From assembly GCA_905236735.1 (NCBI GenBank), contig CAJOOU010000082.1, forward strand, positions 1 through 34,291: a stretch of DNA of 34,291 nucleotides, in the 5' to 3' direction. Source of the DNA: an uncultured Eubacterium sp. (lineage in GTDB: Bacteria > Bacillota > Clostridia > Lachnospirales > Lachnospiraceae). Shown one piece after another: positions 5,912-29,884 of the stretch; position 1 is the stretch's first letter, and every line of letters begins with the position of its first letter. Made by a program: the position numbers and the translations under genes. The notes under the pieces are model-generated. The model was not told where the DNA came from, ran no database searches, and saw only the letters and a list, made by a program, of their open reading frames with translations.

Positions 5912-7969
5912 ATGGAACTTTATTCTTCTATAAGAGGCTTAAAAGGCATAGGAGAAAAAACAGAAAAACTGTTTGGGAAATTAGGAGTATATTCATGTCT
6001 GGATATGCTCCTTTATTTTCCCAGGTCCTTTGCGGAGTATCCTGATATAGCCGACCCTGTTGATATAACGGTAAACAAGGTTTTTGCCGTAAAAGGGAAG
6101 GTGCTCGATAAACCACTTAGAAAAAAGACTGCGAGAATGGATATAGTTATTGCACAGATGACGGACGGACTGAATGAATTTGGTCTTACTTTTTTCAGAC
6201 AGCCCTATATGTCATCTGTACTTAAAAGCGGAGATGAGTTTGTTTTTTACGGTAAGGTATATGCCAAAGGGCAGAAGTTTCAAATGGATCAGCCAAGGGT
6301 ATTTACTACCGAAAAATATCAGGAGATGCAGACATCACTTCAGCCGGTATATCCGCTTACCTTTGGACTAAAAAACCAGACCGTTATAAAAGGGGTAGAG
6401 GCTGCGCTTTCTAACGGAGTTTTTCCGGATGAGATTATTCCTGAAAATATAGCTGTAAAATATGATTTTCCAAATGAAAAAGATGCTGTTTTTGCCATGC
6501 ATTTTCCGAAAAGTAAAGAGGAGTATTTAAGAGCCAGAAGCAAATTCACCTATGAAGAATTTTTGTTTTTTATCCTTGGAATAAAGTATCAGAAGCAGAG
6601 TCTGGGAAATATTAAAAATAATTACAGGATTACGGAAACATCCGTTATGGAGGAGGTAAAAAACAATCTGGGATATGAGCTTACACCTTCCCAGAAAGAT
6701 GCTCTTTTTGATATTTTAAGAGATGTTTCGGCAGAAGGATGTATGCAAAGGCTTTTGCAGGGAGATGTGGGCTCGGGAAAAACAATAGTAGCCTTCCTTA
6801 GCATGATTGCCTTTGCTCAAAACGGATATAAGTCTGCTCTTATGGCGCCTACCGAGGTTCTGGCGGTGCAGCATTACGAGTCTTTATGTAAACTGGTAAA
6901 GAAAAACGGTCTGAAAACCGAGGTTTTGCTTCTTACAGGTTCTGTTAAGGCGAAGGAAAAAAGAGAGATTTATGAGAAGCTGATAAAAGATGAGCCTGTA
7001 TTTGTTATTGGCACCCAGGCGCTTATACAGGAGGGTGTTTTGTATAACGGGCTCGGTCTTGTTGTTACTGACGAGCAGCACAGATTCGGAGTAAACCAAA
7101 GGGATATTTTTTCTCAGAAAGGCTCTCATCCCCATGTACTTGTAATGAGTGCAACTCCGATACCGAGGACTTTGTCCATAATATTATACGGAGATCTTGA
7201 TGTATCTGTTATGGAGGGGATGCCCCGAAAAAGGCTTCCGATAAAAAATGCCGTGGTGAAGGAAAAAAGCCACCCGGCATGTTATAGAAAAATACTTGAA
7301 CAGCTCAATATGGGGCATCAGGCGTATGTAATATGTCCCCTTGCGGAAGAGTCGGAAGAGATCAATGCCAAAGATGTGGTGAGTTTTTGCAATCAGCTGA
7401 GGGATGTTTTTCCCAAAACTGTAAGGATAGAATACTTAAACGGAAAACTTCCTTCATCACAAAAACAGGAAATAATGGACGATTTTGCGTCGGGTAAAAT
7501 AAAAATCCTGGTTTCCACAACTGTAATTGAAGTGGGCATAGATGTTGCAAATGCCACAATTATTATGATAGAAAATGCCGAAAGGTTTGGACTGGCACAG
7601 CTGCATCAGCTAAGAGGCAGGGTGGGACGAAGCGATAAGCAGTCCTATTGTATTCTTGTAAACGGTTCCGATAAGGATGAAGCATCGGAAAGACTGGAGA
7701 TATTAAACGGGTCAAATGACGGGTTTTATATAGCCGAACAGGATTTGAAACTCAGGGGACCGGGAGAGTACTTCGGCTACAGACAAAGCGGTGATATGTC
7801 TTTTAAGGTGGGAGATATTTATGAAGACCAAAATATGCTCAAAAATGCCGCGTCAGATGCTGCGGATATTCTTTCAAAAGACCCCGCCCTTGATTTGCCT
7901 GAGCACCAGAGGCTTAAGGCGAGGGTACTTTTATATATGAAAGAGAGAGCCGAACTTACCGGAATATAG
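5912..7969 (+). CDS. recG: ATP-dependent DNA helicase RecG
   Basis: LLQGDVGSGKT Walker A, DEQHRFGVNQR, SATPIPRTL, QLRGRVGRSDKQSYC. Confidence 0.97.
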   Translation: MELYSSIRGLKGIGEKTEKLFGKLGVYSCLDMLLYFPRSFAEYPDIADPVDITVNKVFAVKGKVLDKPLRKKTARMDIVIAQMTDGLNEFGLTFFRQPYMSSVLKSGDEFVFYGKVYAKGQKFQMDQPRVFTTEKYQEMQTSLQPVYPLTFGLKNQTVIKGVEAALSNGVFPDEIIPENIAVKYDFPNEKDAVFAMHFPKSKEEYLRARSKFTYEEFLFFILGIKYQKQSLGNIKNNYRITETSVMEEVKNNLGYELTPSQKDALFDILRDVSAEGCMQRLLQGDVGSGKTIVAFLSMIAFAQNGYKSALMAPTEVLAVQHYESLCKLVKKNGLKTEVLLLTGSVKAKEKREIYEKLIKDEPVFVIGTQALIQEGVLYNGLGLVVTDEQHRFGVNQRDIFSQKGSHPHVLVMSATPIPRTLSIILYGDLDVSVMEGMPRKRLPIKNAVVKEKSHPACYRKILEQLNMGHQAYVICPLAEESEEINAKDVVSFCNQLRDVFPKTVRIEYLNGKLPSSQKQEIMDDFASGKIKILVSTTVIEVGIDVANATIIMIENAERFGLAQLHQLRGRVGRSDKQSYCILVNGSDKDEASERLEILNGSNDGFYIAEQDLKLRGPGEYFGYRQSGDMSFKVGDIYEDQNMLKNAASDAADILSKDPALDLPEHQRLKARVLLYMKERAELTGI

Positions 7970-9718
7970 CTATGATTCCACGAGAGTAAGCGCGGAGATG
8001 TCCGTGGAAGCTATGAGGGAATAGTTGGTATAATAGACTACAAATCCCGGTTTTGCTCCGTTTGGTTTTTTGACATTTTTACGCTGCAGGTAGTCAATCT
8101 CGACCTTACCTGCATTTCTGCCGCCTGAATAATAGGCGGCAAGCGAGCCCGCCTCTTCAAAGGCGCGGTCTGTCATTTCTTTTCCGCCTGTTTTAACTAT
8201 TACATGGGAGCCCGGAGTCTTTTTGGCGTGAAACCACCAGTCTCCGCCGTTTGCCACCTTGAAGGTGAGTTCATCGTTCTGCAGGTTGTTTTTGCCTACA
8301 TACATATCAAAACCATCGGAAGATATATAGTGAAACGGAGTGCTTTTTCCCGGTTTAGAGACCTTTTTTGAAAGCGTATGTCTTTTTATATATCCGCAGT
8401 TTATTAGTTCGTCCTTAATCTGCATAAGGTCGGCCTCGGATACGGCAATGCCCAGGGAAGTATCTATTGTCATAAGATGGTCAAGCTCGGATTTGGATGA
8501 TTCGAGCTGAGAGCTTAATGCCTCTGCCGTTCTTTTCAGCTTGTTGTATCTGGCAAAATATTTCTGTGAGTTTTCCTGGGCGCTTATGGTGCTGTCGAGA
8601 GGTACAATTATATTTTCGTTGGTATAGTAGTTTAAAAGCTCGCATTTTTTTTCGCCTGCTTTTACGCTGTATCCGTACGCATTTAAGAGCTCACCGTAGA
8701 GCTTGTATTTGTCTTTCTTTTCCGTGTCTTTCATTTGGCGAAGCTGCAGGTCGTACTTCCTTCTTGTGCGGTCTATTGCGTTTGAAACAACCTTTCTGAG
8801 GTCGGATGATTTTTGCCTTATCCTTGAATATACTTCCTTGTCCTTGTAATAGGTATGGATGACTTCGGATACGCTGCTGAATTCTTTTATTTCGTATCCT
8901 TCATACATTGAGGGTTTTATGCATGAAAAATCAACCGGTTCCCTGCCGCTGTAAATAATACACGGGAAGAACCTGCCGTTTTTGATATCGTCCATAAGCC
9001 ATGAAAAGTGATTGTATATATGCTTTTTGGTATCTTTGCTGAGACTGCTTGTCATAGTTTCAGGATCAATTGAGCTCCTGAAACAGATTTCTGAGGCAAT
9101 CTGGGGAGAAATACCGTTATAGCTCTGATAGATGGCTTTTTGTATATCTGCATCTTTTGATGAGATAAGACCGCAGAATTCCTCTTCGCTTGTGTTTAGA
9201 GGATCTTTTTTATCGGCCGTTTTCGGGTAAAAATATTCTCTGCCCGGCAAAACCTCTCTTAATGAACTCATATTTGCCGAAATATGCTTTACGGCGCCGA
9301 GAATCATATTATTTTCATCACAGAAAATAATGTTGGAGCGTTTACCCATAAACTCGGCATAAATATATTTGGTGCATAAATCTCCGAGGTCGTTATAGTG
9401 CTGTATTTCGAATCTGATTATTCTTTCGGTCTCAGGCTGGGTGATGCTTATTATCCTGCCGTTTGCTATATGTTTTCTTAAAAGCATACAGAAGTTGGGC
9501 GCACTTATAGGGCTGGGTTTTCCCGTTTGGGTAATATATATAAGTGGGAGAGAGGCGTTTGCCGACATAACGAGTTTGACAGAGCCTCCCTGTTTTTTGT
9601 TTATAGTAAAAAGAAGCTCATCGGGTTCGGGCTGGGCGATTTTGGCAAGCCTGCCGCCTATTACTTCTTTGTTTAAATCATAGACAATATTTGCGATAAC
9701 TGTTCCGTCAAAAGCCAC
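7970..9718 (-). CDS. rqcH: Ribosome quality control protein RqcH (NFACT/Rqc2 homolog)
   Basis: N-terminal MAFDGTVIANIVYDLNKEVIGGRLAKIAQPEPDELLF; C-terminal NFACT-R region DWWFHAKKTPGSHVIVK; GTG start. Confidence 0.95.
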   Translation of the reverse strand: MAFDGTVIANIVYDLNKEVIGGRLAKIAQPEPDELLFTINKKQGGSVKLVMSANASLPLIYITQTGKPSPISAPNFCMLLRKHIANGRIISITQPETERIIRFEIQHYNDLGDLCTKYIYAEFMGKRSNIIFCDENNMILGAVKHISANMSSLREVLPGREYFYPKTADKKDPLNTSEEEFCGLISSKDADIQKAIYQSYNGISPQIASEICFRSSIDPETMTSSLSKDTKKHIYNHFSWLMDDIKNGRFFPCIIYSGREPVDFSCIKPSMYEGYEIKEFSSVSEVIHTYYKDKEVYSRIRQKSSDLRKVVSNAIDRTRRKYDLQLRQMKDTEKKDKYKLYGELLNAYGYSVKAGEKKCELLNYYTNENIIVPLDSTISAQENSQKYFARYNKLKRTAEALSSQLESSKSELDHLMTIDTSLGIAVSEADLMQIKDELINCGYIKRHTLSKKVSKPGKSTPFHYISSDGFDMYVGKNNLQNDELTFKVANGGDWWFHAKKTPGSHVIVKTGGKEMTDRAFEEAGSLAAYYSGGRNAGKVEIDYLQRKNVKKPNGAKPGFVVYYTNYSLIASTDISALTLVES

Positions 9719-9794
9719 TTGAAATCATCCTTTCAATTTTTAGGCTGACGGGACGCATGTGTTTGGCTTTCGTCAGCCTGATTCAGTAAAACTA

Positions 9795-9823
9795 ATCATA
9801 ACTTAAAAAATGTAAAGTTGCAA
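9795..9823 (-). promoter_or_regulatory. Candidate sigmaA promoter for rqcH
   Basis: On minus strand: TTGCAA - 17 nt - TATGAT. Confidence 0.55.
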
Positions 9824-9847
9824 TGTATTAATAAATTATGATACTAT
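9818..9847 (+). promoter_or_regulatory. Candidate sigmaA promoter for the hybrid kinase operon
   Basis: TTGCAA - 18 nt - TACTAT; uses the same palindromic TTGCAA as the rqcH candidate. Confidence 0.45.
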
Positions 9848-9934
9848 TCTAATATCTATTCCGGGCCTGTGGGTGGCGTATGTTTATGGCTCGCCTCAGC
9901 CTCAATATGCAAGGAGTTATTTTGGGGAGTTTTT

Positions 9935-11974
9935 ATGTACAGAGACGAAGAAAGGGAGACAATATCTCATATTGCGTATTTAGCCGTGCTTACTTTGCTC
10001 GGGCTTCTTTTGATAATCATTTCTTACATTTCAGGTTGGAATACGGCTTTTATACCGATTACATTCATAATGATAGTAAGCTGCTGGGCGTTTCACATTA
10101 TTAATCTGGGAACCGAAAGTCAGAGACTGTATTTTTATACAATATGTACAGGCATACTTCTTTTTTACTATGGAGCCCATCCCAAGGCTCTTACAGACAT
10201 TCCCATTGTTATCTGCCTTGTTGTCATAGCTCTTTCGGCAAAGAATGATATGAAGCTTGCGTATATGGCTGTTATTCCTTATCCGTTACTTATTATTTAT
10301 CATATATTTACGGGTTATATAGGGCCGGGAAGCGAGCAGATAGTTATATCAAGGCTCTTTCTCGGGATAGTTGCCGTTGCTGCGTCCCTTATTCTTGCCA
10401 AATCCATTTTTGTAAACAGAATTAATTCCGAGTCTGAATATAAGCAGCTTCAAAAAGAACTTGATGATGCTATGAATAATACCGAGAACTTTCTTGCAAA
10501 TGTGTCGCATGAACTAAGGACTCCGATAAATGCAATTAACGGTATTACCGAAATCATGCTTTCGTCAAAGCTTCCGGAGAATCTTATAAAAGATGCCGAA
10601 TCAATTCATTATGCCGGGAAAAGGATATATAACCAGATATCAAATATTCTGGATTTTTCGGAGATAACCACCGGAAGCATCCGGGTAGTGCCCCACGAGT
10701 ATGAAATTACCTCTGTGGTTAATGATGCATATGAGAATGTTATCTGGGGAGACTATGGCAAAAATCTGGATATTGCCATAGATATTGAATCGGATATTCC
10801 GGTTGTTTTATTTGGTGATGACGCAAAAATTAAGAAGATAATAAGTGAGCTCCTTGATAATGCGATTAAATTTACCTCGGTCGGCGGAGTATATCTCTAT
10901 ATAAGCAAGAGGGATGAAAAATACGGCATTAATCTCAATATAGATGTCAAAGATACCGGAAAAGGAATGAACCGCAGAGAGATTGAGGCTATTTATAAAG
11001 GGTATTATAAAAAAGACACCGAGAGTAACCGTACAACAAACGGTATGGGCATAGGCCTTTCTATAGTACATGCTCTTGCCTCGGCAATGGACGGATTTAT
11101 GAGTATAAGTTCCCGTGAAGGAGAGGGGACTCATGTGCACATATCCATACCTCAGGCGGTCAGAAACAAACAGCCTGCAATCTACCTGCCCGACAGCAGC
11201 AGATACAATATAGGATGTTATTTTAATACGGACAAATATGCCAAAAAAGAGGTTGCCGCATATTACGGGGCTGTTATTGAACATATAAGGGAAGGCCTGG
11301 GTATAAAGATAGCAACTGCTTCATCTTTCATAGAATTTAAGGAAATCATTAAATACAATAAGCTGTCCCATGTATTTATCTCCGAATGGGAGTATGAGAT
11401 GGACAGAAGATATTTTGAGGAATTATCAAAGAGTGTGCGCCTTTTGATGTTTTCGGCAACGGGTGATGCAGTTGACAATGCGGACATTCTTGTTGTTAAA
11501 AAACCTGTATTTGTCTTAAATGCCATAAATATTTTGGATGATGCCTATACCGGCGTAAAAAAGGAAAAAGAGCCTTTTGCTGATTACAGCCGGCTCAGGG
11601 TACTTGTTGTAGATGATGACTCAATGAATATCATGGTGGCCAAGGGAATACTTTCCATGTACGGGATAAGTGCCGAGAGTGCCACAAACGGCAGAATGGC
11701 GGTGGACAGATGTGCAGCAGAAGATTTTGACATTATTTTCATGGATCATATGATGCCGGGGATGGACGGCGTCGAAACTATGAAAAAAATCAGAATGCTA
11801 AGAAACGGATTTTATAACGATATACCTATTATTGCTCTTACTGCAAATGCGGGAAGCGGTGCAAGGAGTATGTTTTTTGAACAGGGATTTAATGATTTTG
11901 TTGCCAAGCCGGTTGAGAGCTCGGCAATGACAAGGGTTCTCAGAAAGTTTTCGGGAGGCGTGGGAAGCGTATGA
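9935..11974 (+). CDS. Membrane hybrid histidine kinase (multi-TM sensor, HisKA, HATPase, degenerate receiver-like region, REC)
   Basis: FLANVSHELRTPINAI H-box; NAIKF N-box; DTGKGM; GMGIGLSIV G-box; REC VLVVDDD...IIFMDHMMPGMDG...FVAKP. The 9869 ORF start is less likely than ATG 9935, which follows ggggag. Confidence 0.93.
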   Translation: MYRDEERETISHIAYLAVLTLLGLLLIIISYISGWNTAFIPITFIMIVSCWAFHIINLGTESQRLYFYTICTGILLFYYGAHPKALTDIPIVICLVVIALSAKNDMKLAYMAVIPYPLLIIYHIFTGYIGPGSEQIVISRLFLGIVAVAASLILAKSIFVNRINSESEYKQLQKELDDAMNNTENFLANVSHELRTPINAINGITEIMLSSKLPENLIKDAESIHYAGKRIYNQISNILDFSEITTGSIRVVPHEYEITSVVNDAYENVIWGDYGKNLDIAIDIESDIPVVLFGDDAKIKKIISELLDNAIKFTSVGGVYLYISKRDEKYGINLNIDVKDTGKGMNRREIEAIYKGYYKKDTESNRTTNGMGIGLSIVHALASAMDGFMSISSREGEGTHVHISIPQAVRNKQPAIYLPDSSRYNIGCYFNTDKYAKKEVAAYYGAVIEHIREGLGIKIATASSFIEFKEIIKYNKLSHVFISEWEYEMDRRYFEELSKSVRLLMFSATGDAVDNADILVVKKPVFVLNAINILDDAYTGVKKEKEPFADYSRLRVLVVDDDSMNIMVAKGILSMYGISAESATNGRMAVDRCAAEDFDIIFMDHMMPGMDGVETMKKIRMLRNGFYNDIPIIALTANAGSGARSMFFEQGFNDFVAKPVESSAMTRVLRKFSGGVGSV

Positions 11975-14802
11975 AAGGAAAAGAACATATAATTATTTCT
12001 GCCGACAGCATCTGTGACCTTCCGCCGGAACTTAAGGATAAATACAAAATCAGCTGTATACCGTATTATGTAAACACATCGGGAGCTCATCTTATTGACG
12101 GCGAAGAGGTTGATTCGGATGATCTTATGGTGTATCTGTCAAACAGCAGTAATATAGCTGTTTCCGCTTCACCGGAAGTCAATGAATATAATGCGTATTT
12201 TCGCAGCCTTAAGCTTAAGGCAGACCACATTATACATATCAGTGCCGGCAAAAATGTCGGCGAAGGGTATACAAGGGCAAATGAAGCTGCCAAAACCATG
12301 GAAAATGTTTATGTTGTTGAGAGCGGTCTTATTTCGAGCGGAATAGGTATACTTGCAATAAAAGCATCTGAATATGTGAGTGAAGGTCTGGCCGTTGATG
12401 AGGTTTTGCGTGAACTTGAACAGGATAAAAAGCTGATACCCGTGTCTTTTTATGCAAAATCGGGAGACAGGCTTTCAGAAAGCGGCAGGATTTCGGAAAG
12501 AATAAATAAAACAAGTAAAAGACTGGTTTCACATCCGATACTTGAGATGAGAAATTCTTCCATTTCACTAAAAAAGTTTGTTTTCGGCAGGGATAAAAAG
12601 GCGTTTTCCTCGTACATAAGAAGTGTAATGAAAAATCTCTGGAGGATAGATGATGAGACAGTATTTATTACCTATGCGGGTATGGATGACGACTCACTTG
12701 AGTTTATCAGGGATGAAATTAAAAAATACATAGAGTTTAAAAATGTTATTTTCCAGAAGGCGTCCGCGGCCATAGCGGTTAACTGCGGTGCGGGTACGGT
12801 AGGGATAATATTCTCATATAAAAGAAGTGCGCCGTCAAAACTTTCGGGAGAGGAGAACAAAAAACCGGGTTTAAAGGACAACCTCAAAAATTTTGCTTTT
12901 TATTTTTTTATAAATGAAGAATACGAAATCAGACATATAAGGGTAAATATCATCTTCAGCTTAATGATTATCGGAGGCGTTATATTTATGCGGCTCTCCG
13001 GGGTAAAGCTTATACCTGTGATTTTCTATGCTGTGGTTTTTGTTTTATTGTGGATGGTTTTTGCTGTTTTAAACCTGGCATATAAAATGCAGAGGGAGGC
13101 CTTGATGAGACACGAAGAGGAGCTGCTTTTTGCAAATAATGCAAAAAACACCTTCCTGGCAAATATGTCTCATGAGATTAGAACGCCCATAAACGGTATT
13201 ATTGGTATGGATACGATGCTGCTTCGGGAGTGCGGGGATGATAACCAGGCCCTCAAAGAATATGCAGTTAATATCAAGCATGCTTCAAACCAGCTTCTTG
13301 CCATTGTAAATGACATACTTGACATATCCAAGATAGAGTCAGGCAAACTTGAGGTTATTAATGCGGACTATAAGGTTTTCAATCTGATAAGGGATTGTGT
13401 AAATATAAATGAACCAAGGGCTGATGCCAAAGGGATTAAATTCATTTTAAAGGCGGATGGGGCTCTTCCTTCCGTGCTCTTTGGGGATGAGATAAGAATA
13501 AAGCAGATTATAAACAACCTTTTATCCAATGCCATTAAATATACCGAGAGCGGAAGTGTTATTTTTGAAGTAGGCTATAAGTTTATTAACGATGCAAGGA
13601 TTAATCTCGTGCTTTCCGTTAAAGATACGGGTATAGGTATTAAAACCGAAGATATGGCATCGCTTTTTGACAGCTTTACGAGACTTGAAGAGGGAAGAAA
13701 CAGAGCTATAGAGGGCACGGGACTTGGACTGAACCTGACAAGGGCTTTGGCGGAGCTTATGGACGGAACTATTTCCGTGGAAAGCGTATACGGCAAGGGA
13801 TCCACATTTAAGGCGGTTTTGCCACAGATAATAAAAAGTAATGTGCCTGTGGGAGACTTTAATAAAAGGCTTAAAGAAATTGATTTATCGGAGATGACCG
13901 AAAGAACCTATGTTTACGCACCTAAATGCCGCATTCTTGTTGTGGATGATGTGGAAATGAACCTTTTTGTTGCCAAAGGATTGCTTAAATACACCGGAGC
14001 TGTCATTGATACGGCATCCAGCGGTATGGAAGCCCTTGACCTGGTTGCAAAAAACAGCTATGAAATTATTTTCCTCGATCATCTTATGCCAAAGATGGAT
14101 GGCGTTGAGACTCTTAAAAAGATGATGGAGTTTGAAAATAGTATTAATGCTGCAACTCCGATTATCATGATGACTGCAAATGCAATTGCAGGTGCAAAGG
14201 AGGAGTATATAAAAGACGGATTTACGGATTATATAGCAAAACCGATTGTTGATAATAAATTCCAGGAGATTTTAAAAAAATATCTGCCTCAGGATAAGTT
14301 TACCGTGGTTAAATCCAAAAGCACTGAGGAAAACAGTAAGGAAGAAGAAACTGTTGCAGTGGATTTTTCGGAAGACATTATTGAAATCGAGCCGTATGAA
14401 GAAGAGGTGCTTTCGGGCAAAAATGACGCCTCGGAGTTTCCTTCTTTTATAAAAGAAATAGACTTCCTTGATACGGAGACGGGACTTAAGTTTTGTCTTT
14501 CGGATATAAATTTTTACAGGCAGATATTAAATGAGTTTATTACGGCAGATAAGACGCTTGTGCTTAACGCGGCCTTTGTCGCAAAAAACTGGAGCGATTA
14601 CAAGATATATGTCCATGCTTTAAAAAGCACCTCTCTTAACATTGGTGCCATAGCCCTTAGTAATGCGGCTCTTGAAATGGAAGAAAAGTGCAAACTCTCC
14701 GATACGGACTATATTATTAGTCATCATGATGAACTTATGGAAATGTATGGTGATATTCTTAAAAAACTCAAAAGAAGGCTGATGCTCCCTGAAACAGAGT
14801 GA
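11971..14802 (+). CDS. DegV-domain hybrid histidine kinase (DegV - 2 TM - HisKA - HATPase - REC - HPt)
   Basis: N-terminal DegV-like SADSICDLPPELKDKYKISCIPYYV...VESGLISSGIGIL...KASAAIAVNCGAGTVGIIF; H-box FLANMSHEIRTPINGI; G-box GTGLGLNLT; REC RILVVDDVEMN...DHLMPKMDG...YIAKP; HPt HALKSTSLNIGA. Starts in an ATGA overlap with the upstream kinase. Confidence 0.93.
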   Translation: MKGKEHIIISADSICDLPPELKDKYKISCIPYYVNTSGAHLIDGEEVDSDDLMVYLSNSSNIAVSASPEVNEYNAYFRSLKLKADHIIHISAGKNVGEGYTRANEAAKTMENVYVVESGLISSGIGILAIKASEYVSEGLAVDEVLRELEQDKKLIPVSFYAKSGDRLSESGRISERINKTSKRLVSHPILEMRNSSISLKKFVFGRDKKAFSSYIRSVMKNLWRIDDETVFITYAGMDDDSLEFIRDEIKKYIEFKNVIFQKASAAIAVNCGAGTVGIIFSYKRSAPSKLSGEENKKPGLKDNLKNFAFYFFINEEYEIRHIRVNIIFSLMIIGGVIFMRLSGVKLIPVIFYAVVFVLLWMVFAVLNLAYKMQREALMRHEEELLFANNAKNTFLANMSHEIRTPINGIIGMDTMLLRECGDDNQALKEYAVNIKHASNQLLAIVNDILDISKIESGKLEVINADYKVFNLIRDCVNINEPRADAKGIKFILKADGALPSVLFGDEIRIKQIINNLLSNAIKYTESGSVIFEVGYKFINDARINLVLSVKDTGIGIKTEDMASLFDSFTRLEEGRNRAIEGTGLGLNLTRALAELMDGTISVESVYGKGSTFKAVLPQIIKSNVPVGDFNKRLKEIDLSEMTERTYVYAPKCRILVVDDVEMNLFVAKGLLKYTGAVIDTASSGMEALDLVAKNSYEIIFLDHLMPKMDGVETLKKMMEFENSINAATPIIMMTANAIAGAKEEYIKDGFTDYIAKPIVDNKFQEILKKYLPQDKFTVVKSKSTEENSKEEETVAVDFSEDIIEIEPYEEEVLSGKNDASEFPSFIKEIDFLDTETGLKFCLSDINFYRQILNEFITADKTLVLNAAFVAKNWSDYKIYVHALKSTSLNIGAIALSNAALEMEEKCKLSDTDYIISHHDELMEMYGDILKKLKRRLMLPETE

Positions 14803-24728: not shown

Positions 24729-26297
24729 ATGAAACAGATGGAAGCAGATGTTGTAGTAGTAGCCTGCGGTATGTCAGGTCTTGCTGCTTTAACACAGGCT
24801 CAGGAAAGTCTTAACGCAACAGGCGGCGGAAAGGCAATCGCATTCGAGAAATCAGGTACTTCAGGCGGATCGGCTAATATGGGAATGGCTCTTCTTGCCT
24901 TTGAGTCACAGATGCAGAAAGAGCAGATGTATAATGACTTCACAAAGGATGATGCTTTTAACTTCTTTATGGAGTATGTACATTGGCGTTCAGATGCAAA
25001 ACTTGTTCGTCGCTGGTTCAACCAGTCTTCAGAGACTATTGAGTGGCTTCAGAATATGGGTGTTGAGTTCCTTGGCGTTTACAAATACTTCAAGAACTCA
25101 CATGCAACACAGCATATCGTAAAGACTCCGGGCTCAAACAAGCCTTGCGAGAGATGTGCATCTATCATGAACAAGACGATTACATCTTACGCACAGGAAA
25201 TCGGTGCTGAGATTGTATTCAATACACCTGTTAAAAAGATTCTTACAGGTTCTAAGGGACAGGTAAGAGGAGTTATCGCAGTAGATGAGAACGGTGAAGA
25301 AATCGAGTGCCTTTGCAATGCAGTAATCGTTGCTACAGGTGGTATCGGTAACAATGTAGATATGATCGAGCAGTACATGGGATGGAAATGGGGCGTTGAT
25401 ATGTTCACATTCCGTATCCCGGGTATTGACGGTGACGGTCTTAATATGGTATGGGATATCGGCGGAAAGAAAGCAAAAGTTAACATGGAGGTAACATACA
25501 ATACTCCTGGTACAACAGATATCTTCAAGACACTTTCAGAGACAATGAGACAGCCTAACCTCATGGTTAACCTTCAGGGTAAGAGATTTATCAATGAGGA
25601 AATCATGGATAACACAACATTTACAGGTAACTCACTTCTTCTTCAGAAGGGACATCAGGGCTTTACTATCATCGATCAGGATATCGTTGATTGCTACAAA
25701 GAGCACGGCCTTGACTATATTACATATCACCATGGTGTTACACACATGGATAAGTGGGATGAAGAGCTTGAGCTTTACTTAAACGGTGGTACAATCGAAG
25801 CTTCAGGTCTTTCAGACCTTCACGATGGTAAGGACGATGTTTCAAGCGGCCAGGTTAACTTCTGGAAGTTCGATTCTATCGAAGAGCTTTGCGCTACTAC
25901 AGGAATCGATGAGAAGAACCTTAAGGCTACAATCGCTGAGTACAATGATATGTGCAACGGAAACATGAGAGGTTATGACTGGCAGTTCACAAAGGATCAC
26001 AGATTCCTTAAGCCAATCAAAACAGCTCCGTTCTATGTGGCTCGTCACTTACCTGGCGGATATGGCTCACTCGGCGGTATCGAGGTTGATGAGAACATGG
26101 CTTGCCTTGACAACGATTACAAGCCGATTCCGGGACTTTATGCCTGCGGTAATGATACTGCTACAGTATTTGCTGATTCATACTGCTTCTACAATCCGGG
26201 TTCAACAATGTCATACGCTGTAAACTCAGGTCGTATCGCTGGTATGGAAGCCGTTAAGTATATGGATTCAGATGACTTTATCGATCCTGAAGAGTAA
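24729..26297 (+). CDS. FAD-dependent oxidoreductase (fumarate reductase/ketosteroid dehydrogenase flavoprotein superfamily), substrate unknown
   Basis: N-terminal ADVVVVACGMSGLAAL; AVIVATGGIGNN; IPGLYACGND; MSYAVNSGRIAGMEAVKY. Confidence 0.88.
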   Translation: MKQMEADVVVVACGMSGLAALTQAQESLNATGGGKAIAFEKSGTSGGSANMGMALLAFESQMQKEQMYNDFTKDDAFNFFMEYVHWRSDAKLVRRWFNQSSETIEWLQNMGVEFLGVYKYFKNSHATQHIVKTPGSNKPCERCASIMNKTITSYAQEIGAEIVFNTPVKKILTGSKGQVRGVIAVDENGEEIECLCNAVIVATGGIGNNVDMIEQYMGWKWGVDMFTFRIPGIDGDGLNMVWDIGGKKAKVNMEVTYNTPGTTDIFKTLSETMRQPNLMVNLQGKRFINEEIMDNTTFTGNSLLLQKGHQGFTIIDQDIVDCYKEHGLDYITYHHGVTHMDKWDEELELYLNGGTIEASGLSDLHDGKDDVSSGQVNFWKFDSIEELCATTGIDEKNLKATIAEYNDMCNGNMRGYDWQFTKDHRFLKPIKTAPFYVARHLPGGYGSLGGIEVDENMACLDNDYKPIPGLYACGNDTATVFADSYCFYNPGSTMSYAVNSGRIAGMEAVKYMDSDDFIDPEE

Positions 26298-26434: not shown

Positions 26435-26938
26435 ATGCAAAAAAATAAAAAGAATGTAACTGAATATGTGGTTGACAGAGACTGGTCAATTATCATATCC
26501 GAAGATAAGGATACGGATGTTTTTCTTTATAATGCAAAAAGCCGTAATGCTAAATTTATTTTAAAGCAGCAGGGCAGAATTGAAAATCCCGACGAGTATG
26601 TGCTTGATGTTATCCGCAATATTGACAAATTCAAAGATGATATAGTCTTTGACAAGGAAGTGGATCCAAAACATATAGTTGATGAGATTTCAAAACTTTA
26701 TAAAACCTGCCGCGGCGAAAAGGAATTTCAGGCCAACATTGCTTATATGATTTTAGGGGCAATAAGCAAGACATATAATGATATGGAAGAGGCTGGAGAC
26801 GGATTTAAAACAGAAGACTCTAATGTCCATGTAAATATCATGAAAACAGTACACAGAGTCGGAGAGATGCTCGAAAGTGTTGAGAGCAGGGATGGTTTGG
26901 TTAATGCTGTTGCAAATAATAAGACGAGTCCTTTTTAA
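26435..26938 (+). CDS. Hypothetical protein, no family recognised
   Basis: 167-aa ORF with sequence-wide coding character, flanked by intergenic regions; ATG preceded by cggaaggtt. Confidence 0.7.
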   Translation: MQKNKKNVTEYVVDRDWSIIISEDKDTDVFLYNAKSRNAKFILKQQGRIENPDEYVLDVIRNIDKFKDDIVFDKEVDPKHIVDEISKLYKTCRGEKEFQANIAYMILGAISKTYNDMEEAGDGFKTEDSNVHVNIMKTVHRVGEMLESVESRDGLVNAVANNKTSPF

Positions 26939-27085: not shown

Positions 27086-29200
27086 GTGGCGAAAGTAAAA
27101 ATTTTCGTTGACGGAACAGAAATTGAAGCGGAAGAGGGACAGAATGTCCTGAGAGCTGCACTTGGCGCAGGTATTTATATTCCGCATTTATGTTCACACC
27201 CGGACCTCGAAAGCAGAGGCGGATGTAAACTTTGCGTTGTTAATGTCGAAGGCATGGAAGGTGCTCAGACATCATGTACAACCATTGTTAAAGAAGGCAT
27301 GAAGATTACAACAAAGGGCGCTCGCTTAGAGCAGATACGCCGTGTTGCAATGGAACTTATGCTTGCGGGACACCCACATGATTGTACATCATGTAAGATG
27401 TACCTTAAATGTGAGCTTCAGGCTATGATGCAGGTAACAAACGCGGTTGCCGGTCGTATGCGTGAGGTTACAAAAACAACGACTCGTATCAATACAAACA
27501 ATCCTCTCAATGTTCGTGAGATGGAAAGATGTATAGCCTGCGGAAGATGTATCAGAGTATGTAAGGATGTCCGCGGAGTAGGCGTTTACCAGCTTAATAA
27601 AACCAATACCAATTATGAGGTCTATGTTGGTACAGAGGGAGACAAGTCCCTTATGGATTCGGATTGTGCATTCTGCGGAGCATGTATCGAAGTCTGTCCT
27701 ACAGGCGCTCTTCAGGATATGGAAGGAGTATTCAGAACCGATATTCCGAGAAGCGAAGCTCTTATCCCATGTAGCGCACAGTGCCCGGCTCACATTGATA
27801 TACCGGAATACATCAGACTTGTTAAAGAAGGAAAGCCTTCAGAAGCTCTTGCTGTTATCCGTGAGAAGGTACCTTTCCCACACTCACTCGGAAAGGTATG
27901 CGTAAGAAGCTGTGAGGGCGCTTGTAAGAGGACGGCTTTAAATGATCCTCTTTCAATCAGAAACCTTAAGAGATATGCAGCAGAGCATGGTGATGCAATG
28001 CTCTGGCAGAAGAATTCCGTTCAGAAACCGGATACGGGCAAGAAGGTCGTTGTTGTAGGTGCAGGCCCGACAGGTCTTACGGCTGCATTCTATTTAAGAA
28101 AACAGGGACATGATGTTACCGTATACGACAGAAACGAATATGCCGGAGGATATATGGAATATGGTATTCCGATGTATCGTCTTTCACATGATGATGTACA
28201 GGAAGAGGTAAAATACATCACAGATACCGGCGTTAATCTTGTTACAAATCACAAGGTTAATAATATAGATGAGCTTAAGAAAGAAGGCTTTGATGCTATT
28301 GTTCTTGCAATGGGTACCATAGCCGGTAAGGATGCCGTTATTCCGGGAAGAGAAAACGGTCATACCACAAGAGCGGTTGAATTCCTTCATAAGATTGCCG
28401 CAGGCGAGCAGGATGAAAATGTTCATGAAGGTGCTAAGGTTATTGTCCTCGGCGGCGGTAATGTTGCCTTTGATGCTGCCAGAACATCTGCAAAGCTCGG
28501 CGCTCATGTTGAACTTTTCTGCCTTGAGCAGAGAAAGGACATGCTTGCTGATGATGAGGAAATCGAGCAGGCACAGGAAGAAGGCGTGGTTGTTCATGAC
28601 GGAACCACCAACCTCGAACTTGTTGGAAATACCGACAAACTTGAAGGTTTAAGATATGCTAAAATCAACAGCTTCAAGTTCGGACCAAACGGACTTGAGG
28701 TAGATATGGTTGAGGGCTCTGAGGCAGTTTGCGAGGGTGATTACATTATCTTTGCAATGGGTCAGAAAGCTGACTTTGAAGGCTTTGGAATTGAGACCAA
28801 TAAATTCGGATTCCCTGTAATGGAAGGCGAACATACACTTCCTATGGAAGGTGTATTTGCGGCCGGTGATTGCATCACAGGAACAAAATCTGTTATACAG
28901 GGTATTGCCGGAGGTAGAGAAACAGCCATTGAAGTAGATAAATATCTTGGCGGAGACGGTGATATCTCAGAGAATCTTTATGAAAGAGAAGCTCATAATC
29001 CGAATCTCGGACTCAGAGAAGGCTTTAATAAGATTCCGAGAGAAGAACTTACCGTTACACCTCTCGCAGAAAGAGCACGCACCTTTAATGCAGTTGAAGC
29101 TGGCTTTACTGAAGAGCAGGCACATTGCGAGTCAGGCAGATGTCTCCAGTGTGATTTGAGATGCGATCTTCAGAGAGTTAAGATGTGGACTGAGTACTAA
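27086..29200 (+). CDS. Fusion of NuoG/HydA-type Fe-S module ([2Fe-2S], His-Cys3, 2x[4Fe-4S]) with NfnB/GltD-like NAD(P)-dependent flavoprotein
   Basis: HLCSHPDLESRGGCKLCVV and SC; HPHDCTSCKMYLKC; CIACGRCIRVC and CAFCGACIEVCP; CSAQCPAHIDIPEYI; GAGPTGLTAAFYL; GGYMEYGIPMYRL; GGGNVAFDAARTSAKLGA; GTG start with aaggagg RBS. Confidence 0.93.
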   Translation: MAKVKIFVDGTEIEAEEGQNVLRAALGAGIYIPHLCSHPDLESRGGCKLCVVNVEGMEGAQTSCTTIVKEGMKITTKGARLEQIRRVAMELMLAGHPHDCTSCKMYLKCELQAMMQVTNAVAGRMREVTKTTTRINTNNPLNVREMERCIACGRCIRVCKDVRGVGVYQLNKTNTNYEVYVGTEGDKSLMDSDCAFCGACIEVCPTGALQDMEGVFRTDIPRSEALIPCSAQCPAHIDIPEYIRLVKEGKPSEALAVIREKVPFPHSLGKVCVRSCEGACKRTALNDPLSIRNLKRYAAEHGDAMLWQKNSVQKPDTGKKVVVVGAGPTGLTAAFYLRKQGHDVTVYDRNEYAGGYMEYGIPMYRLSHDDVQEEVKYITDTGVNLVTNHKVNNIDELKKEGFDAIVLAMGTIAGKDAVIPGRENGHTTRAVEFLHKIAAGEQDENVHEGAKVIVLGGGNVAFDAARTSAKLGAHVELFCLEQRKDMLADDEEIEQAQEEGVVVHDGTTNLELVGNTDKLEGLRYAKINSFKFGPNGLEVDMVEGSEAVCEGDYIIFAMGQKADFEGFGIETNKFGFPVMEGEHTLPMEGVFAAGDCITGTKSVIQGIAGGRETAIEVDKYLGGDGDISENLYEREAHNPNLGLREGFNKIPREELTVTPLAERARTFNAVEAGFTEEQAHCESGRCLQCDLRCDLQRVKMWTEY

Positions 29201-29218
29201 AATAAGGAGGTGCGGAAA

Positions 29219-29884
29219 ATGGAAAAAATATGTAATGTAACTGATGAATCTTTAAAAGATTTAATAGAACTCGCAGGAAAGGCCGGATCGGATACCGGCG
29301 TATGTCCTGTAGAAACTGCCTTCCTTATAGCAGAGAAGTCAATTAAGATGACCTGCGGCAAGGGTGTAATGTGCAGAGACGGTCTCAGACAGTTTTATCT
29401 CATACTCGAAGATATTACAAACGGTCGAGGCAAGAATGAAGATATAGAGCTTCTTCTGGAACTTTGCGGTGTTATCAAGGAATGCGCTGATTGTGATCTT
29501 TCATATACATGCGCAGAGCAGATTGAAAAGCTTATAAATGAGCATATGGAAGACTTTGAACTCCATATCAAGAGAAAAAGCTGTAAGAATCTCATTTGTC
29601 CGGGATGTCATACGGTACATATCGATGCATCGAAGTGTACAGGTTCCGGAGAATGTATCAAGGTATGCCCTGCTGATGCCATAAAGGGCGGTGCCGGACT
29701 TTTCAGTGTTATCGTTCAGTCCAAGTGCACGGCCTGCAATAAGTGTATAGAGGTCTGCGGCGCAGGTGCCATTAAAGGCGCAGGTGCGGTTAAACCTCAG
29801 GGACCTACGGAACCGGCTGCAGTTGGTTCGTGGGGAGCAGGTGCCGGCGGAGAAGGCGGAGGAAGAAGACGCCGCCGCGGATAA
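29219..29884 (+). CDS. Short Fe-S protein resembling the NuoF/HydB C-terminal domain plus two ferredoxin-like motifs and an Arg/Gly-rich tail
   Basis: CGKGVMCRDGLRQFYLILEDITNGRGKNEDIELL (cf. NuoF CGKCxPCREG region); CTGSGECIKVCP and CTACNKCIEVCG; C-terminus GGEGGGRRRRRG. Start taken as ATG 29219 (MEKICNV) after the aaggagg RBS. Confidence 0.85.
   Translation: MEKICNVTDESLKDLIELAGKAGSDTGVCPVETAFLIAEKSIKMTCGKGVMCRDGLRQFYLILEDITNGRGKNEDIELLLELCGVIKECADCDLSYTCAEQIEKLINEHMEDFELHIKRKSCKNLICPGCHTVHIDASKCTGSGECIKVCPADAIKGGAGLFSVIVQSKCTACNKCIEVCGAGAIKGAGAVKPQGPTEPAAVGSWGAGAGGEGGGRRRRRG

Follow-up and report, generated by a model that had tools for sequence, protein, structure and literature searches.

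A NuoG-GltD fusion protein and a truncated NuoF remnant as the probable electron-supply arm of a FAD_binding_2 flavoenzyme

To what do two adjacent Fe-S proteins of an uncultured Eubacterium sp. pass their electrons? The window analyzed here is a DNA stretch of 34,291 nucleotides, which is the entire contig C82 of a draft genome (1.85 Mb, 264 contigs, 88% complete), and the two genes in question, referred to here as P1 (27086..29200) and P2 (29219..29884), lie next to each other on its forward strand. An initial annotation had inferred either a self-contained two-subunit ferredoxin-NAD(P) oxidoreductase or an adaptor in electron exchange with HydA, the [FeFe]-hydrogenase encoded at positions 2 to 1537. 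Our analysis upholds the underlying reading of the two proteins and points to a different partner.

P1 is a 704-amino-acid protein, with a GTG start and the Shine-Dalgarno sequence GGAGG, in which a GltD/NfnB-type FAD-NAD(P)H domain follows a NuoG-like front end in the same chain. All of its Pfam domains scored above the cut-off (Fer2_4, residues 3 to 77; NADH-G_4Fe-4S_3, 85 to 116; Fer4_Nqo3, 144 to 209; Fer4_20, 228 to 303; Pyr_redox_2, 319 to 605), and the front end is predicted to hold a [2Fe-2S] cluster, a His-ligated [4Fe-4S] cluster, and two [4Fe-4S] clusters. The 16 NuoG-type ligands (C36, C47, C50, and C64; H96, C100, C103, and C109; C149, C152, C155, and C159; C194, C197, C200, and C204) are identical in 99 of 99 aligned homologues. 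The GltD part adds seven cysteines and K295, the ligands for two further [4Fe-4S] clusters, which are all invariant in the same 99 proteins, and R365 is kept in 98 of them. These domains and ligands agree with the initial annotation, which had seen in P1 a complete HydA/NuoG-like Fe-S front end and an NfnB/GltD-like flavoprotein. It had also pointed to a front-end layout common to HydA and P1, and both motifs behind this comparison were found, HDKKCLSCVRSGKC in HydA and HPHDCTSCKMYLKC in P1.

The nucleotide used by P1 is most likely NADH, judging from the segment that follows the second Rossmann motif. StnC-like and N3-GltD proteins carry a Y-R-R stretch at this site, which reads C-L-E in P1, with the Glu present in 97 of 99 homologues. 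In NADP-binding Rossmann folds, the loss of Arg and gain of Glu points to NADH; since the Arg residues of Y-R-R are lost and a Glu is gained, P1 is predicted to be NADH specific. Weighing against this reading, R-K replaces L-E at the predicted specificity site in the P1 proteins of two loci (L113 and L137).

The listed open reading frame of P2 (29210 to 29884) begins at a GTG and encodes 224 amino acids. However, the Shine-Dalgarno sequence AAGGAGG overlaps this GTG, and the P2 protein of a sister species starts at a Met that matches the ATG at 29219. For these reasons we moved the start to this ATG, which is probably the true one and yields a protein of 221 amino acids. Pfam identified an NADH_4Fe-4S domain (residues 46 to 119) and two 4Fe-4S motifs in P2, and a Pfam search for Complex1_51K, SLBB, and 2Fe-2S_thioredx found none of them. 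This is in line with the earlier description of P2 as the C-terminal Fe-S part of HydB/NuoF, without FMN/NADH-binding or HydC-like parts. Residues H119, C125, and C130 (in the 224-residue numbering) are kept in 73 of 75 homologues and are, by their position, plausible ligands of a putative Zn linker. P2 of the source genus has Gly at one N3 ligand position (G52), where 70 of 75 homologues have Cys, and Ser at one ferredoxin ligand position (S146), where 65 of 75 do. With these two ligands lost, its Fe-S chain may be altered. The C terminus of P2 (29840 to 29884) carries an arginine run, GGGRRRRRG; arginine runs also occur at L042, L043, L058, and L093, and other P2 proteins end in KKR or FKKRH, so that the character of this basic tail, though not its sequence, is conserved.

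The P2 homologues form a ladder from proteins bearing the FMN domain to proteins that lack it fully; an eroded NuoF domain persists in most relatives and a recognizable FMN domain in a few. The P2 protein of L099 (Dehalococcoidales) retains the NuoF FMN domain with its RGRGGGGY motif (Complex1_51K, 112 bits), followed by those of L133 (Acetobacterium tundrae, 70 bits), L127 (55 bits), and L148 (23 bits, under the cut-off). The commonest form, of 365 to 450 amino acids, has a 190-residue N terminus; in L046 this region has no FMN match in Pfam, and it aligns with the FMN/SLBB region of NuoF (hhalign local probability 98.8, E value 1.2e-16). The fully truncated state costs four changes on a quick, midpoint-rooted P1 tree, suggesting that it probably arose more than once. 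As judged from these sequences, P2 goes back to a NuoF/HydB subunit in which the FMN/NADH arm first decayed and then disappeared in a stepwise manner.

The self-contained oxidoreductase of the initial annotation is at odds with the genomic context of the pair. By linkage, co-occurrence, and gene fusion, P1 and P2 belong with a third component, a FAD_binding_2 flavoprotein of 522 amino acids, whose gene (24729..26297, forward strand) had been overlooked. A scan of public genomes yielded at least 497 relatives of P1, with a full-length alignment in nearly all of the best 80. The 101 P1 loci that we compared span Bacillota, Spirochaetota, Chloroflexota, Actinomycetota, Acidobacteriota, and other phyla; one locus (L143), from a Prolixibacteraceae (Bacteroidota) metagenome-assembled genome, did not count as independent because it is near-identical to the Acetobacterium tundrae locus, and its contig is probably a binning contaminant. 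The NuoF-like gene of L143 is split in two frames. P1 and P2 are immediate same-strand neighbors in 99 of the 101 loci, and both exceptions have P1 near a contig end. No more than 4 kb separates the flavoprotein gene from P1 in 85 of the 101 loci, and where at least 4 kb of flank is available on both sides, the two are this close in 54 of 59. Among 299 genomes of the family, whose contigs match Lachnospiraceae-type isolates such as Catenibacillus scindens, Eubacterium oxidoreducens, and Anaerobium acetethylicum, independent searches found 23 genomes with P1 and 22 with the flavoprotein; both occur in 20, compared to 1.7 expected (hypergeometric p of about 6e-26, uncorrected for the relatedness of the genomes). 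The two apparent flavoprotein-only genomes are one in which P1 is cut at a contig end (G224, locus L058) and one that is 79% complete (G170). Moreover, P2 and the flavoprotein are fused into a single chain of 910 to 982 amino acids in at least nine loci (L077, L078, L079, L094, L100, L106, L109, L151, and L153, where L079 and L106 come from isolates, L151 from a single-contig genome, and L100 and L109 equal L052 and L060, respectively). At L150, the fusion joins P1 to the N3 portion of P2, and the P2 ferredoxin domain is missing there. Each of the two junctions in the proposed chain thus occurs as a natural fusion.

In the window, a gene for a 167-amino-acid protein (26435..26938, forward strand) is located between the flavoprotein gene and P1, with intergenic gaps of 137 and 147 bp on either side, which makes a single transcript less certain. 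This protein belongs to no family that we recognized, as it matched neither Pfam nor NCBIfam models, and its only homologue is found in the sister species (L042), at the same position between flavoprotein and P1. The two copies share 32% identity, whereas the flanking genes are 72 to 84% identical to their sister-species copies; by this comparison the 167-residue protein is fast evolving. With a homologue confined to the sister species, it is probably accessory or unrelated to the module. The surroundings of the locus, rluA upstream and recU and his genes downstream, give no hint about the substrate.

The flavoprotein is the predicted terminal reductase of the module. It contains the FAD_binding_2 domain (PF00890, E value 4e-36), and comparison with PDB entries places it with FccA and urocanate reductase; the flavoprotein part of a relative's fusion protein reaches a TM score of 0.85, by target length, against urocanate reductase (6t86). 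The best NCBIfam match is the vinyl phenol reductase VprA (NF053717), at 261 bits for the window protein and 309 to 348 bits for relatives, against a cut-off of 600, and no curated NCBIfam family covers P1, P2, or the flavoprotein. The protein shares its fold and FAD domain with flavocytochrome c fumarate reductase, urocanate reductase, and VprA. In contrast to flavocytochrome c fumarate reductase, the flavoprotein has no heme domain, and its electrons would come via P1 and P2. We take the catalytic residues of that enzyme to be Arg402, His504, and Arg544; in phmmer alignments with 1d4d and 1qo8, these positions hold residues other than Arg or His in the flavoprotein. The fumarate/urocanate-reductase fold, the loss of these Arg and His residues, and VprA as the nearest curated family together suggest a substrate with a C=C bond that is not fumarate.

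In our view, P1 and P2 probably supply the electrons for a soluble flavoenzyme of three components, whose flavoprotein would use electrons from NADH to reduce its substrate. A pyridine nucleotide, most likely NADH, would donate a hydride to the FAD of the GltD-like domain of P1, and single electrons would then pass, by way of the P1 Fe-S clusters, to P2, where they would reach first the NuoF-type cluster and then the C-terminal 2x[4Fe-4S] domain. This domain, the putative ferredoxin outlet in Stn and Hyd complexes, would here feed the flavoprotein, which in turn would reduce an organic acceptor, probably at an activated C=C bond. The main mechanistic clue is that the natural fusions attach precisely this exit domain to the flavoprotein, so that the ferredoxin outlet appears to have been rewired to a dedicated flavoenzyme. 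With the FMN/NADH arm of P2 lost, and the NAD-side FMN outlet gone with it, the complex should conduct electrons from NADH to its substrate in a single line, without bifurcation. For one of the natural fusions of P2 with the flavoprotein, an AlphaFold model based on an alignment of fusions and flavoproteins shows well-folded domains (mean pLDDT, 85; pTM, 0.57) connected by a disordered linker (residues 395 to 439), with no confident packing between them and no support for docking at the flavin.

The kinship of the pair to Stn, Hyd, and Nfn modules, as previously suggested, was borne out. Among solved structures, P1 is closest to StnC and its relatives, and the GltD part of P1 has the StnC-type Lys and Arg: by phmmer alignment, K295 corresponds to StnC K170 and R365 to StnC R239, both of which have been studied (PMC10482914). 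The FAD of StnC was assigned a non-bifurcating role (PMC10482914), and by analogy the same would apply to the FAD of P1. Compared to NfnB, P1 has the invariant StnC-type Lys (K295) instead of Glu at the proximal cluster, which also suggests that it is probably not bifurcating. The GltD domain of StnC interrupts the NuoG part, separating the [2Fe-2S] domain from the other NuoG clusters, and StnC continues with an FdhF-like domain, whereas the NuoG part of P1 is contiguous and the protein ends after the GltD domain; in StnC order, phmmer aligned P1 residues 1 to 101, 228 to 693, and then 103 to 222. StnB and P2 are both NuoF-type proteins with an N3 cluster, a Zn-type linker (putative in P2), and a C-terminal ferredoxin domain, and in StnABC, the Sporomusa-type Nfn of S. 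ovata (PMC7483475, PMC10482914), this last domain of StnB, joined via a Zn-stabilized linker, is the putative ferredoxin site. Unlike StnB, P2 has no FMN/NADH-binding domain (no Complex1_51K), a StnA (NuoE/HydC-like) partner is absent, with a HydC-like match in only one of the 101 loci (L043), C-L-E stands in place of Y-R-R, and a flavoprotein partner is added. On the domain order, the missing FMN domain, and the missing StnA, we reject a known Stn complex as the identity of the pair, and a separate Stn-type operon in the sister species (L069) speaks against it as well.

The electron-bifurcating hydrogenase HydABC of A. woodii, T. kivui, and T. maritima has its counterpart of P2 in the C-terminal portion of HydB and that of the P1 front end in the N terminus of HydA, but the pair has no H-cluster (no Fe_hyd_lg_C in P1), no HydC, and no FMN, and the terminal enzyme is another one. 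NfnAB shares the GltD/NfnB-type FAD-NAD(P)H domain with P1, but NfnA, which is ferredoxin-NADP reductase-like, is missing and the NuoF-derived P2 is present instead. Finally, the N3-GltD fusions of the source genus (PRK12771-like; L063 and L069) combine NuoF N3 and GltD domains and differ from P1 in lacking the NuoG front end, in keeping Y-R-R, and in having no flavoprotein alongside in the loci read. In the genome studied here, this type is represented by a 616-residue protein with Y-R-R (L063, contig C45, 782 to 2632), followed by a gene for 902 residues. In the sister species, L069 (G091:C30, about 6065 to 14375) comprises a separate Stn-type operon encoding proteins of 162, 583, and 718 amino acids, the last with an inserted GltD domain and no FdhF-like tail, beside an [FeFe]-hydrogenase (HydA) and an N3-GltD fusion, forming a dense cluster of related redox modules.

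The same components could also run in reverse, with the flavoprotein as a dehydrogenase that oxidizes its substrate and P2 and P1 passing the electrons to NAD+. The flavoprotein superfamily does contain 3-ketosteroid and tricarballylate dehydrogenases, and in Butyrivibrio-type loci (L081, L088, L089, L092, L101, and similar ones) the module is found near FMN_red, phosphotransacylase, butyrate kinase, and thiolase/ChsH2-like genes and a PucR-type regulator, neighbors that hint at a catabolic pathway for the substrate and so speak for this direction. Across the loci, however, the neighboring genes (PucR and LysR regulators, FMN_red, and phosphotransacylase/butyrate kinase/thiolase) point to no single substrate. 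We consider the reverse direction unlikely, since VprA, the top match among curated families, is a reductase, urocanate and fumarate reductases have the most similar folds, and strict fermenters usually need electron sinks. Less probable still is that P1 and P2 form a stand-alone ferredoxin:NAD(P) oxidoreductase, with P2 meeting soluble ferredoxin and the flavoprotein being a mere frequent neighbor. The role ascribed to the homologous StnB domain and the absence of the flavoprotein from five of the loci with full flanks would fit such a pair, which is set against the fusions of P2 to the flavoprotein and their near-perfect co-occurrence. That the pair is a degenerating Stn-type complex with little function left, as the missing FMN domain and, in the source genus, the two missing cluster ligands of P2 might suggest, seems highly improbable in view of the invariant P1 ligands (99 of 99 proteins), a widespread FMN-less state that was probably reached more than once, and the separate Stn-type operon kept by the sister species. 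We give almost no credence to the adaptor to HydA, for although both have NuoG-type front ends, HydA matches the model of the NADH-dependent group A6, and L043 has HydABC near the pair, the hydrogenase gene is about 25 kb away in the window, none of the other 100 loci (mostly with 4- to 7-kb flanks) except L043 has a hydrogenase nearby, and HydC and HydB are encoded on contig C6.

Returning to the supply arm of an NADH-dependent reductase, we tentatively propose a widespread and uncurated class of soluble enzymes, in which the NuoG-GltD protein and the amputated NuoF serve as an interchangeable supply arm for FAD_binding_2 reductases. Literature searches for a module of this make-up returned only Stn papers, bifurcation reviews, and unrelated work, with thin coverage of subscription journals, so that an earlier description is possible. 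Gut anaerobes dump electrons on dietary and host molecules, and many of the soluble enzymes and electron donors involved are still to be found; the module names a specific electron supply for one branch of FAD_binding_2 reductases. If the proposed class exists, unsaturated organic molecules would be cytoplasmic electron sinks for gut and other anaerobes, and the forms that keep the FMN domain (Acetobacterium and Dehalococcoidales) would be bifurcating versions. A correct assignment would also give a joint function to hundreds of genes without a curated family. P2 and its homologues also record, within one set of present-day sequences, how a bifurcating-type NuoF subunit lost its FMN arm step by step and became a plain wire.

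HydA itself, whose match to the group A6 model is above the cut-off, has its usual partners, since HydC and HydB are encoded elsewhere in the same genome (C6, L062). Upstream of hydA, where the initial annotation had proposed to look for them, a second contig (C256, L066) shows cell wall genes instead. The protein encoded at L066, positions 1 to 497, is 98% identical to the window HydA over 97 residues near its N terminus, and this overlap between C82 and C256 likely reflects an assembly break over strain variation. The same genome has two divergent genes for proteins with NuoG/HydA-type front ends (L064, contig C236, 1227 to 3466). Both products extend into a molybdopterin-oxidoreductase Fe4S4 domain; at 356 and 305 amino acids they are short, and the genes are perhaps broken or frameshifted.
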